NCBI GenBank assembly: GCA_028818695.1
Contig: JAPPNK010000003.1
Coordinates: 1 to 43,514 of the forward strand
Direction of reading: 5' to 3'
From: Candidatus Poribacteria bacterium
GTDB lineage: Bacteria; Poribacteria; WGA-4E; GCA-2687025
Length of the DNA: 43,514 nucleotides
Each line of letters begins with the position of its first letter. Position 1 is the stretch's first letter. The position numbers were made by a program, and so were the translations under genes. A model generated the notes under the pieces. It saw nothing but the letters and a program-made list of their open reading frames with translations. It ran no database searches and was not told the origin of the DNA. Below are positions 31,469 to 40,476 of this stretch, one piece after another.

Positions 31469-32512
31469 TTAAAACTGCTCATACTCGTCCGGGCGGAGCC
31501 GCTCGGAGGTACCTGTCTGTTTCATCTGTACCGTCACCGTTTGGATGGAGCCGCACTGTTCGCCTGTCATGGATAAGACCCCGCTATTGACGATTTTGGT
31601 TTTGACAGGCCACAGATCTTCCTTGGAAACATGGACGGTTCCCTCCATGTCGAACGATTCCATGTTGACCGCGATATCCACGCCCTCGATCTGTAGCGAG
31701 GCGGTCCCGTCCGCCAGCTTGCCAGAGCCGGTGAATTCCAAAATGTGCGATGGGATTTGTTTGACGACCTTGTCCCCCTGACGAGACCAATCGAGCTTCA
31801 CATCGGTCGTCAAAGATTGGTCCTGCATCTTTTCAACGACCTTCATCTCCGACTTCCAAATATACTCCTCCAGCTTCGGAAACACGAGACCCGGGGCGAT
31901 GCGGTTTATCTTCAAGCTCTCTTCGGTAAACCAGTCCTTGATGTTGAAAGGCAGGCCTGCAGGGACTTCTATCGATTCTACCGCCGCTAAGAACTCTTTT
32001 GCGTCCACTTTTTTGATTTCGCCGCGCGGCGTCATCGTAACTTTGTACGGCTCGTTCAGGATCGGCTTTGAGAGTTCAGTCGCCAAGCGGGTCAATTCCT
32101 CCTGCGCTTGGTCAATCCGCTCCTGCGGAACGCCCGACAGAGCTGATCCGCCTAAGCCCACGGCAACATCAAACTCTTTATACTTCGTTTCAATGATCCC
32201 GTTCCCGTTTTCGGCAACTTCAACAACGCGCTGCTCAATCACCGAGTCGATCTCATATTTCTCTTTTATCGTTCCGATGGGAGTGTTGGCGGTTGTTTCG
32301 TATTTCAGCTTGCTGCGGTAGGCGAACAGGTCCCCCTCCTGCAGCCGAAAGCGGAGCGGCCCATCGACTTTCTCCGCCGGCGTCGTCAGCGGCTCGACCG
32401 CTTTCTCTGTCGGCGACAGCAGCCCGTCCGTCTGCCCCGCCGGCGGCAGCAGCCCCAACATCGCCAGCGCCAAACCTGTCAACACATACCGCGCCATCTG
32501 CCTAGACCGCAT
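31469..32512 (-). CDS. Exported protein of unknown function, tandem paralogue 1 (DUF6263-like)
   Basis: A 347-residue protein starting at ATG 32512 with GGAGAG 5-6 bases upstream; the longer frame to 32650 runs backwards into the neighbouring copy and is an artefact. Signal peptide: MARYVLTGLALAMLGLLPPA. The mature protein has RFRLQEGDLFAYRSKLKY, VEVAENGNGIIETKYKEFDV, YKVTMTPRGEIKKVDAKEF, LVFPKLEEYIWKSE, and near the end VKTKIVNSGVLSMTGEQCG. This alternation resembles secreted DUF6263-type proteins of unknown function; that label is tentative. It is followed by a Gfo/Idh gene and preceded, after 59 bases, by its own paralogue. Confidence 0.75.
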   Translation of the reverse strand: MRSRQMARYVLTGLALAMLGLLPPAGQTDGLLSPTEKAVEPLTTPAEKVDGPLRFRLQEGDLFAYRSKLKYETTANTPIGTIKEKYEIDSVIEQRVVEVAENGNGIIETKYKEFDVAVGLGGSALSGVPQERIDQAQEELTRLATELSKPILNEPYKVTMTPRGEIKKVDAKEFLAAVESIEVPAGLPFNIKDWFTEESLKINRIAPGLVFPKLEEYIWKSEMKVVEKMQDQSLTTDVKLDWSRQGDKVVKQIPSHILEFTGSGKLADGTASLQIEGVDIAVNMESFDMEGTVHVSKEDLWPVKTKIVNSGVLSMTGEQCGSIQTVTVQMKQTGTSERLRPDEYEQF

Positions 32513-32571
32513 CGCGCTCTCCTTTCCAACAACCTTCAACAGCGTTTCTATAGACGCATTCAAATGACCTG

Positions 32572-33612
32572 TCAATACTCGTCCGGGCGGAGCCGTTCGG
32601 AGGTACTTGTCTGTTTCATCTGTACCGTCACCGTTTGGATGGAGCCGCACTGTTCGCCTGTCATGGATAAGACCCCGCTATTGACGATTTTGGTTTTGAC
32701 AGGCCACAGATCTTCCTTGGAAACATGGACGGTTCCCTCCATGTCGAACGATTCCATGTTGAGCGCGACATCCACGCCCCCGATATGTAGCGAGGCGCTT
32801 CCCTCCGCCATTTTGCCGGAGCCGGTAAATTCCAAAATGTGCGATGGGATTTGTTTGACAACCTTGTCCCCCTGACGAGACCAATCGAGCTTCACATCGG
32901 TCGTCACAGAGCTGCCCTGCATCTTTTCAACGACCCTCATCTCCGACTTCCAGATATATTCCTCCAGCTTCGGAAACACGAGACCAGGGACGATGCGGTT
33001 TATCTTCAAGGTCTCTTCGGTAAACCAGTCCTTGATGTTGAAAGGCATGCCTGCGGGGACTTCTATGGACTTTATCACCGCTGAGAACTCTTTTGCGTCC
33101 ACTTTTTTGATTTCGCCGCGCGGCGTCATCGTAACTTTGTACGACTCGTTCAGGATCGGCTTTGAGGTTTCAGTCGCCATGCGGCTCGCTTCCTCCAGCG
33201 CCTGGTCAATCTGCTCCTGCGGAATGCCAGGCGGAATAATCCCGCCAATGTCCGTCAAGGCAACATCAAACTCCTTAAACTTCGTTTCGATGATCCCGTT
33301 CCCGTTTTCGGCAACCTCAACAACGCGCTGCTCAACCACCGAATCAACCTCATATTTCATTTTCATTGATCCGTCGGGAGTGTCGGCGTTAATTTCGAAT
33401 TTCTGCTTGCTGCGGTAGGCGAACAGATCGCCTTCTTGCAGCCGAAAGCGGAGCGGTCCATCGACTTTCTCCACCGGCGTCGTCAGCGGATCGACCGCTT
33501 CCTCCGTCGGCGGTATTAGTACGCTGTCCGTCTGCCCCGCCGGCGGCAGCAGCCCCAACATCGCCAGCGCCAAACCCGTCAACACATACCGCGCCATTCG
33601 CCGAGACCGCAT
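32572..33612 (-). CDS. Exported protein of unknown function, tandem paralogue 2 (DUF6263-like)
   Basis: A 346-residue paralogue of the next gene (31469-32512), colinear with it from signal peptide to the last residues (SERLRPDEY). The start ATG 33612 follows GAGGAGA. The two coding 3' ends, about 200 bases, differ at only a few positions, whereas the region for residues 40-160 has drifted, including a changed loop (LTDIGGIIPPGIPQEQ against VGLGGSALSGVPQER). This pattern points to a fairly recent duplication or to gene conversion of the 3' half. It lacks the extra EQF found at the end of copy 1. Confidence 0.75.
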   Translation of the reverse strand: MRSRRMARYVLTGLALAMLGLLPPAGQTDSVLIPPTEEAVDPLTTPVEKVDGPLRFRLQEGDLFAYRSKQKFEINADTPDGSMKMKYEVDSVVEQRVVEVAENGNGIIETKFKEFDVALTDIGGIIPPGIPQEQIDQALEEASRMATETSKPILNESYKVTMTPRGEIKKVDAKEFSAVIKSIEVPAGMPFNIKDWFTEETLKINRIVPGLVFPKLEEYIWKSEMRVVEKMQGSSVTTDVKLDWSRQGDKVVKQIPSHILEFTGSGKMAEGSASLHIGGVDVALNMESFDMEGTVHVSKEDLWPVKTKIVNSGVLSMTGEQCGSIQTVTVQMKQTSTSERLRPDEY

Positions 33613-36007: not shown

Positions 36008-39000
36008 ATGAAGCGAGCCAGAGACGAATGGCTCAAAAGCGGAAGACTGCAGCTGGAGACGCTGCTGGGCGAAGGCGCCTTCGGCGAGGTGTGGAAAGCG
36101 GTCGAGTATATCGGCTTCGGACAGCAGGGCGAACTGGTGCGCCTTCGGGACGCCGCCGTCAAGTGCCTTCCGCCGCTTCACGACGAGCGCGACGGCATGC
36201 GCGTCATACAGGAGGCGCAGGGGCTGGCGGAACTTCAACATGAATCGATCCTTCGGCTCTACGACGCTTTCTCCGACGCAGATGGTACCTATCTTGTTAC
36301 GGAGCTGGCGACCGAGGGGCATCTTTGGCAACACTTCGACGGCTCCGTTCCGACCGAGTCGGAGCTTCGGGAGCTGCTGTTCGCTGTCGGGCGCGGGCTG
36401 AATTATCTCCACGAGCAGGGGTATGTGCATGGCGATCTGAAGCCTGAAAACATCCTGGTTTCGGAGGGTCCAGACTACCAGCCGCGGTATCTGATTGCCG
36501 ATTTTGGGCTGCGCGCGCTGATCGGAAGCCGGCATTTTCAAGGCACGGCTCCGTATATCGCGCCGGAGGCGTACTCCGCCAACGCGGGAGCCTTCACCGA
36601 CCGCTCCGATGTGTACGCGCTTGGCGTCCTGCTGTATGAGGTTGCCAGCGGGTCGCGCCTCGCCGACGCGCTTTCAGACAACGAATTCGACGCCCTGCGC
36701 CAACGCAAACCGGACATGGACATCTTCAACGCGGCGATGGAACGCATCCGAGAGACGGTTCAAAATATGCGGTGGCGCTCGCTGCAGCTGCCCTCCTTTT
36801 TGGGAACGCTCCTGCAGTTCTGCCTAGACCCTGACCCGAGCCGGCGCCCTTCGGCATGGGGGCTGATGGAGCTGTGGGCGGCGTTCAGCAGGTCGCAAAG
36901 CGGGGTTCTGCAGATCGACCAACAAGGCTCCGTTCAAAAGCCGGCGACCTACAAGGCGCCGTTCGCGCGCGTCGTCGACATCGAAGAAGACCTGACAAAC
37001 CCGTATGGAACCGAAACCTGCGCCGCGCGGCTCGCCGCTGAAGGCGGGGAATTCATGACGGTCTCCATCGACCGCGGCGTCAATCTGCCGATGTTTCAGG
37101 CGGTCGAGAGGCTCAAAAACAGGCTGCCGGACCGCCCCGCTCTCGTTTCGTTTTACAACCTGGCTCCGCAGGACATCGACCGAATGCGTTTCGAGGCGAC
37201 GCGCAACAGTTACGCCGTTGTGGAGCCGTTCCGCCTGATCGACGTGACGGAGCTGAGCCAGAGCGCTTTCTGCCACCGCTCCTCGCTTCACCGCGTCGCG
37301 GGGACGGGCGTTCAGTTGAGCGAGCCGCTCATGCGCGGTCAGGTTGCGCATGCGCTTTTTGCGGATCTGCTGCTGAATGAACGGGTCGACTTTGACGAGG
37401 CGTGGGAGGCGCGCCGTCCCAGCTGGAGTCTCGACTTTGCCTATCTTTTTGAAGACGACGCGCAGCTGGAACGGTTTAAAAAAGAGGCGCGCCGCCATTT
37501 TGACAACATCAAGAAGGCGCTGCATGGGGAGCCTGCCTGGTACAGCCCGCGCCGTCATGTGGAGTCGATGCGCTGGTCGGCGGAGTTGGGTTTGCTGGGG
37601 CGCGTGGACGCTTTTTTCTTGGCAGAAGGCGGACGCGCGGCGGTGTATGAGCTGAAGGCGGGGCGCGTCGACAGCGGAGACGTTTTTCAGCTTCAAGCGT
37701 ACGCCGCTATGTTGAGCGAGGATATGCGCGCCGCCGGACGCCGTCCGGGAGAAACCGCTTCTCTTCGGGCGCGTCTTCTGTCGAGCGCGGACGGGCGCAT
37801 GCGCGGCGCCTCTCCCGCGCCCAGGGCGAAGCTCGCCGCCGTCCGAAATCAAGCGGCGCGGCTGCGGGAGCAACTGATGGATATGCGGCGCGCGGACGAA
37901 CCTCTTCCGTCCGACTACCCGTTCTTCGGATACCATCCGGCAAAATGCAGCCACTGCTCAAGCCATTACCGGTATCTTCACCAGGCATGCGAGCGTTCAA
38001 CGGCGCTGTTCGGCGAACGCAGCGACCTGGACGCGCCTGCTCTGACGCCGCTTGAACAGGACTATTTCTGGCATGGCATCCGCCTCTCGCTCATCGAAGA
38101 GGAGGCGGTTCGACAGCAGTATCTGCAGCCGCTTCTGAGCGCCATGCAGGCGCCCGGCAGCCTGCTGGACATTGAGATTCCGCGCGGAGAGCGGCGCATC
38201 GAAGGGGCGCGCCTGGCGAACCGCCAAGACTCGCGGCTTGAGTTTCAGTTTGAGCCATGCATGGCGGAATTCAAGGAGGGGGACGAGGCGATCGCGCACC
38301 GCGGCGACCTTCGTCGCTGGCACGAAACGATGCGCGGCACGGTCGCCGAAGCGTCCAGCGGCGCGCTGGTCGTTGAAACGCATGAAGCGCGCGCCTTTCA
38401 AGACGCCGCCGACCTGCCGAAAGACGGATGGGTTGTGGAGCGGTTTCCGCGTTTCTACCGCTCCGACCTGCTCCGCCGGGCGCTTTACATGTTCATCTCG
38501 TCGCGCAACGAGGCGATGAAAGCGCTTGCGCTGGAGGGGCGCATGCCGAAGCGGCAGGGGCTGCTCTTCTCGGCGGCAAAGCCGGACGCCCTGCGCCTTT
38601 CTATGAAGAACCGCCTGAACGCCCAGCAGAGCGCCGCCCTGTTGAGCGGACTGGATGAAAACGGCTTTTTGTCGATCACCGGACCGCCCGGCACCGGCAA
38701 GACGATGACGATACACGCCATCATCGAAACGCATGTGCGGCAGAACGCGCGCGTCCTCGCCGCCGCCGTGACGAACAACGCCATCGACAACATCGTTGAG
38801 CGGTGGATCGAAAGCGGGCGCGGCGCCGCCGGTTTTGAGCCGTTTTTCCGTTTTGGACTTCACTCCGCTATGGCAGAGCAGTTCAAAGAAAGTTTAAAAC
38901 GCCTCAACGTCGACGGACGGCGCATGTTTGCCAAGGAGGCGGGCGCCGCGTTTGGCAGCCTTGCGGAGCTGCGCGCTCATTTAGAGTCGACGCGGCTGTT

Positions 39001-39967
39001 TCTCGGCACGGCGCATTCGCTGCTTGAGTCGCCGTGGGTCGTTCAGGAAAACCCAGACGGCTCGCCCCCGTTCGACCTTGTCATCGTGGACGAGGCGACG
39101 CAGATGCCCGAACCGCTCGCAGCCGCTCTGTTGACGCTCGGCAAAAAGGCGATACTGGTCGGCGACGAGAAGCAGCTCGGTCCGGTCTGCCTCTCGTCGT
39201 TCGATGCGCGGCATTCGGAGATGCCCGATTCGCTTCGAGAAATCGGAATAGCGGGATTGGACAAATCGTTGTTTGAGCGGTTGAACGCGCTTTTGAAGAA
39301 GCGCGGCGGAGAAAAGGGACTGGTCTTTCTCTCTCGGCAGTATCGAATGCATCCCGCCATCAGCGAGTGGGCGTCGGAGCAGTTTTACGGCGGACGGCTG
39401 GAGACCGCGGACGAGGCGCAAGCCCGCCTCCCTGAGCTCGAACGGGCGTCGGAGCAGCCGGGGTGGGACCTCCTGGGGCGTATCTTGGACCCGTCCAGCC
39501 CGTTCGTGTTTTTGGACATACCGGGCGGAGGGGGGGAGATTCCCAACATGAACGTAAAAGAGGCGGAGACGGCCGCCCTGCTGACGCTCGCCATGTCGCG
39601 CCTCGGCTTGAGCGACGTTGGATGCATCACGCCGTACCGCAACCAGCAGGCGGAACTGCGCCGGCAACTGCGCCGTTTCAACCTGTCGGCGGAATGCGGC
39701 ACGGTGGACGCTTTTCAGGGGCGCGAAAAGACGGTTGTCATTCTTTCGACAGCGCGGCGCGACCGTCTCACCTCTTTTCTGGGAGAAAGGAGGCGGTTGA
39801 ATGTGAGCGTCACCCGCGCGCGCCGAAAATGCGTCATACTCGGAAGCCTCGCCGTTTTGAGAGATCATCCGCTGCTCTGGCGGCTCGCCGAAAGGGAGGA
39901 TTGCCGGCGCGAGCGGGCGGAGCCGTCCGACCTGCGCCGAGAACTTGGACTGGAGCCGAGCGCATGA
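36008..39967 (+). CDS. Ser/Thr protein kinase - Cas4/Dna2-like nuclease - SF1 helicase fusion
   Basis: A 1319-residue cytoplasmic protein of three enzymes. (1) Kinase, residues about 12-290: Gly loop G21-EGAFGEVW, K52 in AAVKC, catalytic H141-G-D143-LKPEN148 (HGD, not HRD), D165-FG, A185-PE; all key residues are present. (2) PD-(D/E)XK nuclease of Cas4/Dna2 type, about 410-665: C422, RGQVAHALF, D534 in GRVDAFF, E548-L-K550, Q561...Y565, then C647, C650 and C661, which with C422 could bind an Fe-S cluster. (3) Upf1/Dna2-like SF1 helicase, about 880-1300: G892PPGTGKT, D1028-EATQ, G1052-DEKQLGP, Q1111-YRMHP, DAFQ1237-GRE and NVSVTR1270-AR. I chose ATG 36008 because GGAGG precedes it; the longer frame starts inside the promoter. 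It overlaps the next gene by ATGA. The likely role is kinase-regulated DNA processing, repair or anti-phage defence (inference). Confidence 0.92.
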   Translation: MKRARDEWLKSGRLQLETLLGEGAFGEVWKAVEYIGFGQQGELVRLRDAAVKCLPPLHDERDGMRVIQEAQGLAELQHESILRLYDAFSDADGTYLVTELATEGHLWQHFDGSVPTESELRELLFAVGRGLNYLHEQGYVHGDLKPENILVSEGPDYQPRYLIADFGLRALIGSRHFQGTAPYIAPEAYSANAGAFTDRSDVYALGVLLYEVASGSRLADALSDNEFDALRQRKPDMDIFNAAMERIRETVQNMRWRSLQLPSFLGTLLQFCLDPDPSRRPSAWGLMELWAAFSRSQSGVLQIDQQGSVQKPATYKAPFARVVDIEEDLTNPYGTETCAARLAAEGGEFMTVSIDRGVNLPMFQAVERLKNRLPDRPALVSFYNLAPQDIDRMRFEATRNSYAVVEPFRLIDVTELSQSAFCHRSSLHRVAGTGVQLSEPLMRGQVAHALFADLLLNERVDFDEAWEARRPSWSLDFAYLFEDDAQLERFKKEARRHFDNIKKALHGEPAWYSPRRHVESMRWSAELGLLGRVDAFFLAEGGRAAVYELKAGRVDSGDVFQLQAYAAMLSEDMRAAGRRPGETASLRARLLSSADGRMRGASPAPRAKLAAVRNQAARLREQLMDMRRADEPLPSDYPFFGYHPAKCSHCSSHYRYLHQACERSTALFGERSDLDAPALTPLEQDYFWHGIRLSLIEEEAVRQQYLQPLLSAMQAPGSLLDIEIPRGERRIEGARLANRQDSRLEFQFEPCMAEFKEGDEAIAHRGDLRRWHETMRGTVAEASSGALVVETHEARAFQDAADLPKDGWVVERFPRFYRSDLLRRALYMFISSRNEAMKALALEGRMPKRQGLLFSAAKPDALRLSMKNRLNAQQSAALLSGLDENGFLSITGPPGTGKTMTIHAIIETHVRQNARVLAAAVTNNAIDNIVERWIESGRGAAGFEPFFRFGLHSAMAEQFKESLKRLNVDGRRMFAKEAGAAFGSLAELRAHLESTRLFLGTAHSLLESPWVVQENPDGSPPFDLVIVDEATQMPEPLAAALLTLGKKAILVGDEKQLGPVCLSSFDARHSEMPDSLREIGIAGLDKSLFERLNALLKKRGGEKGLVFLSRQYRMHPAISEWASEQFYGGRLETADEAQARLPELERASEQPGWDLLGRILDPSSPFVFLDIPGGGGEIPNMNVKEAETAALLTLAMSRLGLSDVGCITPYRNQQAELRRQLRRFNLSAECGTVDAFQGREKTVVILSTARRDRLTSFLGERRRLNVSVTRARRKCVILGSLAVLRDHPLLWRLAEREDCRRERAEPSDLRRELGLEPSA

Positions 39968-40476
39968 CGAAGTGGTGGATTCTGCTGGCGGCGGCGGCCG
40001 TCGCCGAGATCTCCTTCGGCGTCTATATCTGGTCGTACCGCCCCGTGTTGCCGTCCGAGGCGGTATATGCGTCCATGGAGGCGGCGCAGGAATCGGACCT
40101 TGACGCGCTAGACGCCGTTCTCCGCGCGAGAGGCGCCGCCTCAGACCCGCGCGCCGTCTGGACATCCTATGTCGGCGCGTTGTGTCTGGAAGAGTACGAG
40201 GCGGCGTACGGCATGTTGTCGCGGCGTTCGAGGGCGGCGTTTGAGGCGGCGGGCGGTCTTGTTTTGTTTAAAAAAGCGCACCGCAGCGCGCCGCCCCGCT
40301 TCGATCTCGGCAAAACGCTGACGCTGGCGCAGGAGGAGAAAACGGCGCTCATCGCCGCCCGGGAGTACGACGCCCCCAAATGGAGCATGGTACGCCTGCG
40401 GCAAGAAGGGGGGCGGTGGCGCATCGAAACGCGCCCCTCGCCCGACAACAAGCGCGCGGTTTATCCTTCCCGCTAA
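39964..40476 (+). CDS. Membrane-anchored protein coupled to the kinase-nuclease-helicase gene
   Basis: A 170-residue protein whose ATG overlaps the stop of the fusion gene (ATGA), so the two are translationally coupled. One N-terminal helix (WWILLAAAAVAEISFGVYIW) anchors it, with the rest outside. The soluble part has helices (ASMEAAQESDLDALDAVLRA), then WTSYVGALCLEEYEAAYGML and a beta-rich end (YDAPKWSMVRLRQEGGRWRI). Such a layout, a helix followed by 'm..g.y..ay..l' and a final 'W-R-I' strand, resembles NTF2-like/DUF4878 domains, but the match is weak. A longer open frame beginning inside the helicase gene is an artefact. Because it is coupled, it is likely to be part of the same system. 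Confidence 0.75.
   Translation: MTKWWILLAAAAVAEISFGVYIWSYRPVLPSEAVYASMEAAQESDLDALDAVLRARGAASDPRAVWTSYVGALCLEEYEAAYGMLSRRSRAAFEAAGGLVLFKKAHRSAPPRFDLGKTLTLAQEEKTALIAAREYDAPKWSMVRLRQEGGRWRIETRPSPDNKRAVYPSR

Follow-up and report, generated by a model that had tools for sequence, protein, structure and literature searches.

A predicted kinase-nuclease-helicase protein of the Dna2 kind in a family of Poribacteria

A 1319-residue protein of Candidatus Poribacteria combines a protein kinase, an iron-sulphur-type nuclease and an SF1B helicase in one chain, an anatomy that, read from profiles and conserved motifs, we regard as secure. Its gene was named KNH (kinase-nuclease-helicase gene). Beyond the anatomy, we give roughly even credence to the reading that KNH is a vertically inherited enzyme of the Dna2 kind that acts alone in processing DNA ends and carries a fused kinase, and that it serves in repair or replication upkeep and not in mobile phage defence. 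The gene lies in a stretch of 43,514 nucleotides (contig JAPPNK010000003.1), hereafter the window, and the genome of the window (G000) was examined together with five others of its family (G001 to G005; n = 6). Its ATG is preceded 5 nt upstream by GGAGG. The features of the locus are listed below, where A1 denotes an alignment of four full-length KNH sequences, namely the protein of the window and homologues from three other genera.

36008..39967, + strand: KNH gene, 1319 aa
36053..36862, + strand: protein kinase domain, residues 16-285 (Pfam Pkinase, E 3.6e-40), with K52, E69, the HGD triplet H141-G142-D143, N148 and DFG 165-167 invariant in A1
37202..38005, + strand: nuclease of the Dna2/Cas4-type PD-(D/E)XK class, residues ~399-666 (Pfam Dna2, residues 399-503, E 4.7e-7, over the gathering score; Cas4 profile match weak; first Cys and His aligned with DNA2)
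within 37202..38005, + strand: nuclease residues C422, H448, D534, E548-L549-K550, Q561, Y565, C647, C650 and C661, all invariant in A1
38273..38614, + strand: inter-domain region, residues ~756-869, aligned with the nuclease-helicase spacer of DNA2 (beta-barrel/stalk by position)
38615..39892, + strand: SF1B helicase of the UPF1/DNA2 type, residues 870-1295 (Pfam AAA_11, 870-961, E 2.3e-26; AAA_12, 1084-1280, E 4.2e-41)
39964..40476, + strand: 170-aa protein with one N-terminal membrane helix, not a conserved partner of KNH

The Pfam matches to the kinase, Dna2 and AAA_11/AAA_12 models are far beyond chance. In line with the original prediction, they place three modules in one chain, and all the catalytic residues named in that prediction were found in place. 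The four cysteines it had assigned to an Fe-S cluster were also present and invariant in A1, one ahead of the catalytic core (C422) and three behind it (C647, C650 and C661), the cluster itself being predicted. In the helicase, the Walker A (G897-K898-T899), DEAT (D1028-E1029), GDE, QYRMHP (1111-1116) and GREK motifs and R1270 were invariant in the same alignment, and the HGD triplet of the kinase showed no variation within the family. The nuclease profile had no match among solved structures by sequence alone. Further, the AlphaFold model of the nuclease-helicase part was unusable (mean pLDDT 37.5), which we attribute to a lack of sequence depth, the fold, including the barrel, being putative.

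The assignment of the nuclease to the Dna2/Cas4 iron-sulphur type, also proposed from the sequence at the outset, was borne out by Pfam Dna2 scores over the cut-off in four KNH homologues. When the KNH family profile was compared with solved structures, DNA2 was the best match (179 bits), followed by SMUBP-2 (172 bits) and UPF1 (147 bits). The main stretch aligned KNH 756-1293 with DNA2 513-1035, and a second, weak segment placed C422 and H448 on the first cluster region and the GTxLHxxF motif of DNA2, so that the resemblance spans nuclease, middle region and helicase in order. The active site of mouse Dna2 is formed by His164, Asp278, Glu299-Leu300-Lys301 and Gln314; the ends of its nuclease are held together by an Fe-S cluster, and a stalk that carries a beta barrel separates nuclease from helicase (PMC4716839). 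These residues correspond to KNH H448, D534, E548-L549-K550 and Q561, and both proteins share the order of Fe-S nuclease, inter-domain region and SF1B helicase. They differ at the front, where DNA2 has an OB domain before the nuclease (PMC4716839) and lacks a kinase, whereas in KNH the kinase comes first. By every feasible sequence test, then, the nuclease-helicase part of KNH is Dna2-like.

The genome of the window also encodes an AddB-like nuclease that is unlinked to KNH. Its nuclease domain belongs to the same Fe-S-braced PD-(D/E)XK class and matched that of KNH locally, in a weak profile comparison (probability 18%) confined to the catalytic core; unlike KNH, AddB has neither a kinase nor a UPF1-type helicase. 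In another phylum, a 1549-residue protein (L036 6150-10799) was observed to contain a UvrD-type helicase, a PDDEXK_1 nuclease and a UPF1/DNA2-type helicase. Its gene directly follows one for a 1014-residue UvrD-nuclease protein, and the 1549-residue protein resembles an AddA that has gained a further helicase by fusion.

KNH was present in five of the six family genomes, the exception being one that is 64% complete (G001). Full-length homologues, 47-53% identical, were found in G002, G003 and G005, and in G004 alone the gene was split into two pieces, which lie at contig ends. A chimeric assembly was considered as the source of the fusion and rejected, because the survey of homologues recovered the same domain order in separate, independent MAGs. 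In the G003 gene, the reading frame is shifted by one base within a G run at the kinase glycine loop (L014 3143-3260); the MAG is of low coverage, and a sequencing error is the probable cause. No homologue was detected at 1e-20 in the 78 genomes searched from the rest of the class and phylum. A pattern scan of the nuclease and linker over 84,980 species genomes, which reaches close relatives only, returned Poribacteria only, and nuclease-linker alignment searches, run without a positive control, were empty. There was no match to KNH in phage records or viral contigs, and the two matches on plasmids were haloarchaeal and limited to the helicase part. This distribution marks KNH as a core gene conserved within one small Poribacteria family.

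The inheritance of KNH was compared with that of the AddB-like protein. Across five genomes, the pairwise identities of KNH tracked those of its unlinked counterpart (r = 0.956 with the congeneric pair left out), and both proteins gave the same grouping of G003 with G004 and G005. On the evidence of these identities and groupings, KNH is vertically inherited with its family. For the congeners G004 and G005, the pair on which all dN/dS values rest, the ratio was 0.053 for the whole KNH gene, compared to 0.22 for the AddB-like gene; the kinase had the lowest value of the three modules (0.026), followed by the nuclease (0.063) and the helicase (0.073). Such ratios indicate strong purifying selection on each of the three modules. 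The GC and GC3 contents of KNH resembled those of neighbouring genes. Inheritance with the family, constraint and matching composition together point to a core gene for which each of the three modules is important.

The original prediction had also coupled KNH to the 170-aa membrane protein encoded immediately downstream. The ATGA overlap, formed by the start of the 170-aa gene and the KNH stop codon, and the single N-terminal hydrophobic stretch were confirmed; the coupling, in contrast, was rejected. Only one of the five other family genomes (G003) held a homologue, approximately 2 kb from KNH, on the other strand and separated from it by a further gene, and the overlap was specific to the genome of the window. 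In the G003 homologue (L018 9046-9600, - strand), the reading frame appears to shift between the N-terminal hydrophobic segment and the conserved domain. An AlphaFold model of the 170-aa protein was unusable (mean pLDDT 39.3). A multi-pass membrane gene just upstream of KNH and a TPR(-matrixin) gene downstream were common to G002, G004 and G005, but in the genome of the window the homologue of the multi-pass gene is on another contig. Since the 170-aa gene is unconserved and the multi-pass gene is unlinked in the genome of the window, no membrane protein appears to be a constant partner of KNH.

The wider neighbourhood was metabolic, respiratory and transport-related. In the window, the genes around KNH include those for a PhyH dioxygenase, Gfo/Idh oxidoreductases, AnmK, a metallo-beta-lactamase-fold protein and an ABC transporter. 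In G005, its neighbours included heme-synthesis genes similar to CtaA and UbiA, genes for an ABC transporter and respiratory complex I, and one for a TPR protein that matched matrixin weakly. Along this locus (L013 2748-14215), KNH follows genes for heme-A/cytochrome oxidase assembly, the ABC transporter and the multi-pass membrane gene, whose product ends in a conserved CMSDLVMPVACTHC stretch. Elsewhere in the window, two adjoining genes (31469-32650 and 32572-33612, - strand) encode closely similar secreted proteins of approximately 346 residues without a Pfam match, apparently the result of a tandem duplication.

A role in phage defence had been raised in the original prediction, and we consider it rather unlikely, although several likenesses speak for it, that KNH is a one-protein anti-phage system that detects phage nucleic acid through its kinase-helicase and destroys it with the nuclease in cis, comparable to type I Mokosh. 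The PADLOC MkoA model matched both the kinase (KNH 27-283 on MkoA 22-267 of 1112) and the helicase (855-1286 on 592-1081), with 295 bits in all for a model without a curated cut-off here; as in KNH, an N-terminal kinase and a C-terminal UPF1-type helicase share one chain. To our knowledge, kinase-helicase fusion in cis is otherwise known mainly from defence, as in MkoA. The MkoA model, however, does not match the Dna2/Cas4 nuclease region of KNH. Mokosh also includes a PLD nuclease gene (MkoB), whereas the genes examined beside KNH gave no PLD match. The best PADLOC match of the KNH kinase was the MADS6 kinase, and the likeness to BREX PglW and MADS6 is confined to this domain. No BREX or MADS genes, nor any other defence genes, were detected beside KNH in the contexts examined, and PADLOC returned only generic ABC-ATPase similarity there. 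Finally, PLuB_AAA (NCBIfam NF040671, the helicase-like protein of the PLuB system), with DNA2 and MkoA one of the nearest named families, aligned collinearly with KNH over nuclease, linker and helicase (~342-1249 of 1256 positions); its N-terminal part did not align to the KNH kinase. The scores of three KNH homologues, 357 (the protein of the window), 374 and 336 bits, fell well below the curated cut-off of 999 bits, so a link to this named system extends to collinear alignment and not to membership. No PLuB member above the cut-off was present in the ~620 genomes searched, and the PLuB_AAA matches inspected outside the KNH family were ordinary or differently fused helicases. A literature search yielded no paper describing PLuB_AAA and nothing relevant on a kinase-Dna2 fusion, and, as in the original prediction, no described system with this domain order was found. 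Neither a defence-island context nor a patchy, non-vertical distribution was observed. Vertical inheritance, constraint stronger than that of the AddB-like gene, presence in nearly every genome of the family and absence from phages and viral contigs all argue against the anti-phage reading, and the context does not bear out the proposed defence role.

A DNA-end-processing enzyme with a Ser/Thr kinase at its N-terminal front is the reading that we prefer, and the intact motifs of all three modules in every genus with KNH are consistent with it. By analogy with DNA2, the helicase would translocate 5'-3' on single-stranded DNA and feed it into a tunnel built from the linker region and the cluster-braced nuclease, and the nuclease would cut it. 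The kinase might phosphorylate its own chain, or a partner on the DNA, and thereby turn resection on or off. Several points count against this assignment. An AddB-like nuclease is also encoded, so a resection enzyme may already exist in the genome. KNH is absent from other Poribacteria families, and hence its function is not general to the phylum. The MkoA-like kinase-helicase fusion, the MADS match of the kinase, the small sample of six family genomes and the unusable model of the fold weigh on the same side.

Two further readings differ in what the enzyme would act on or report to. It is improbable, in our judgement, that KNH is a DNA-damage sensor whose helicase-nuclease detects abnormal DNA ends and whose kinase provides a checkpoint output on other proteins; the invariant catalytic residues of the kinase, and its standing as the most constrained module between the congeners, would fit such a role, but the surroundings of KNH in the genomes examined showed no substrate, phosphatase or phosphopeptide-binding partner, and the output is inference only. 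Very improbable is a UPF1-kind, RNA-directed enzyme of RNA turnover: UPF1, SMUBP-2 and SEN1 are all close to the helicase part, yet the full KNH profile prefers DNA2 and the nuclease belongs to the Dna2/Cas4/AddB class, the known members of which act on DNA.

In eukaryotes, resection by Dna2 is switched by kinases acting in trans. There, separate kinases act on Dna2 in DNA-end resection, whereas KNH seems to hold the kinase and the enzyme that it could control in one chain; a single purified protein, together with three point mutants, would thus suffice to test kinase control of resection. Tentatively, a bacterial lineage may have fused a Dna2-type resection machine to a kinase of its own, and phosphorylation inside a single molecule would then switch resection or report DNA damage. 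For this family of Poribacteria, KNH shows that a kinase-helicase arrangement of the Mokosh type also occurs as a vertically inherited core gene.
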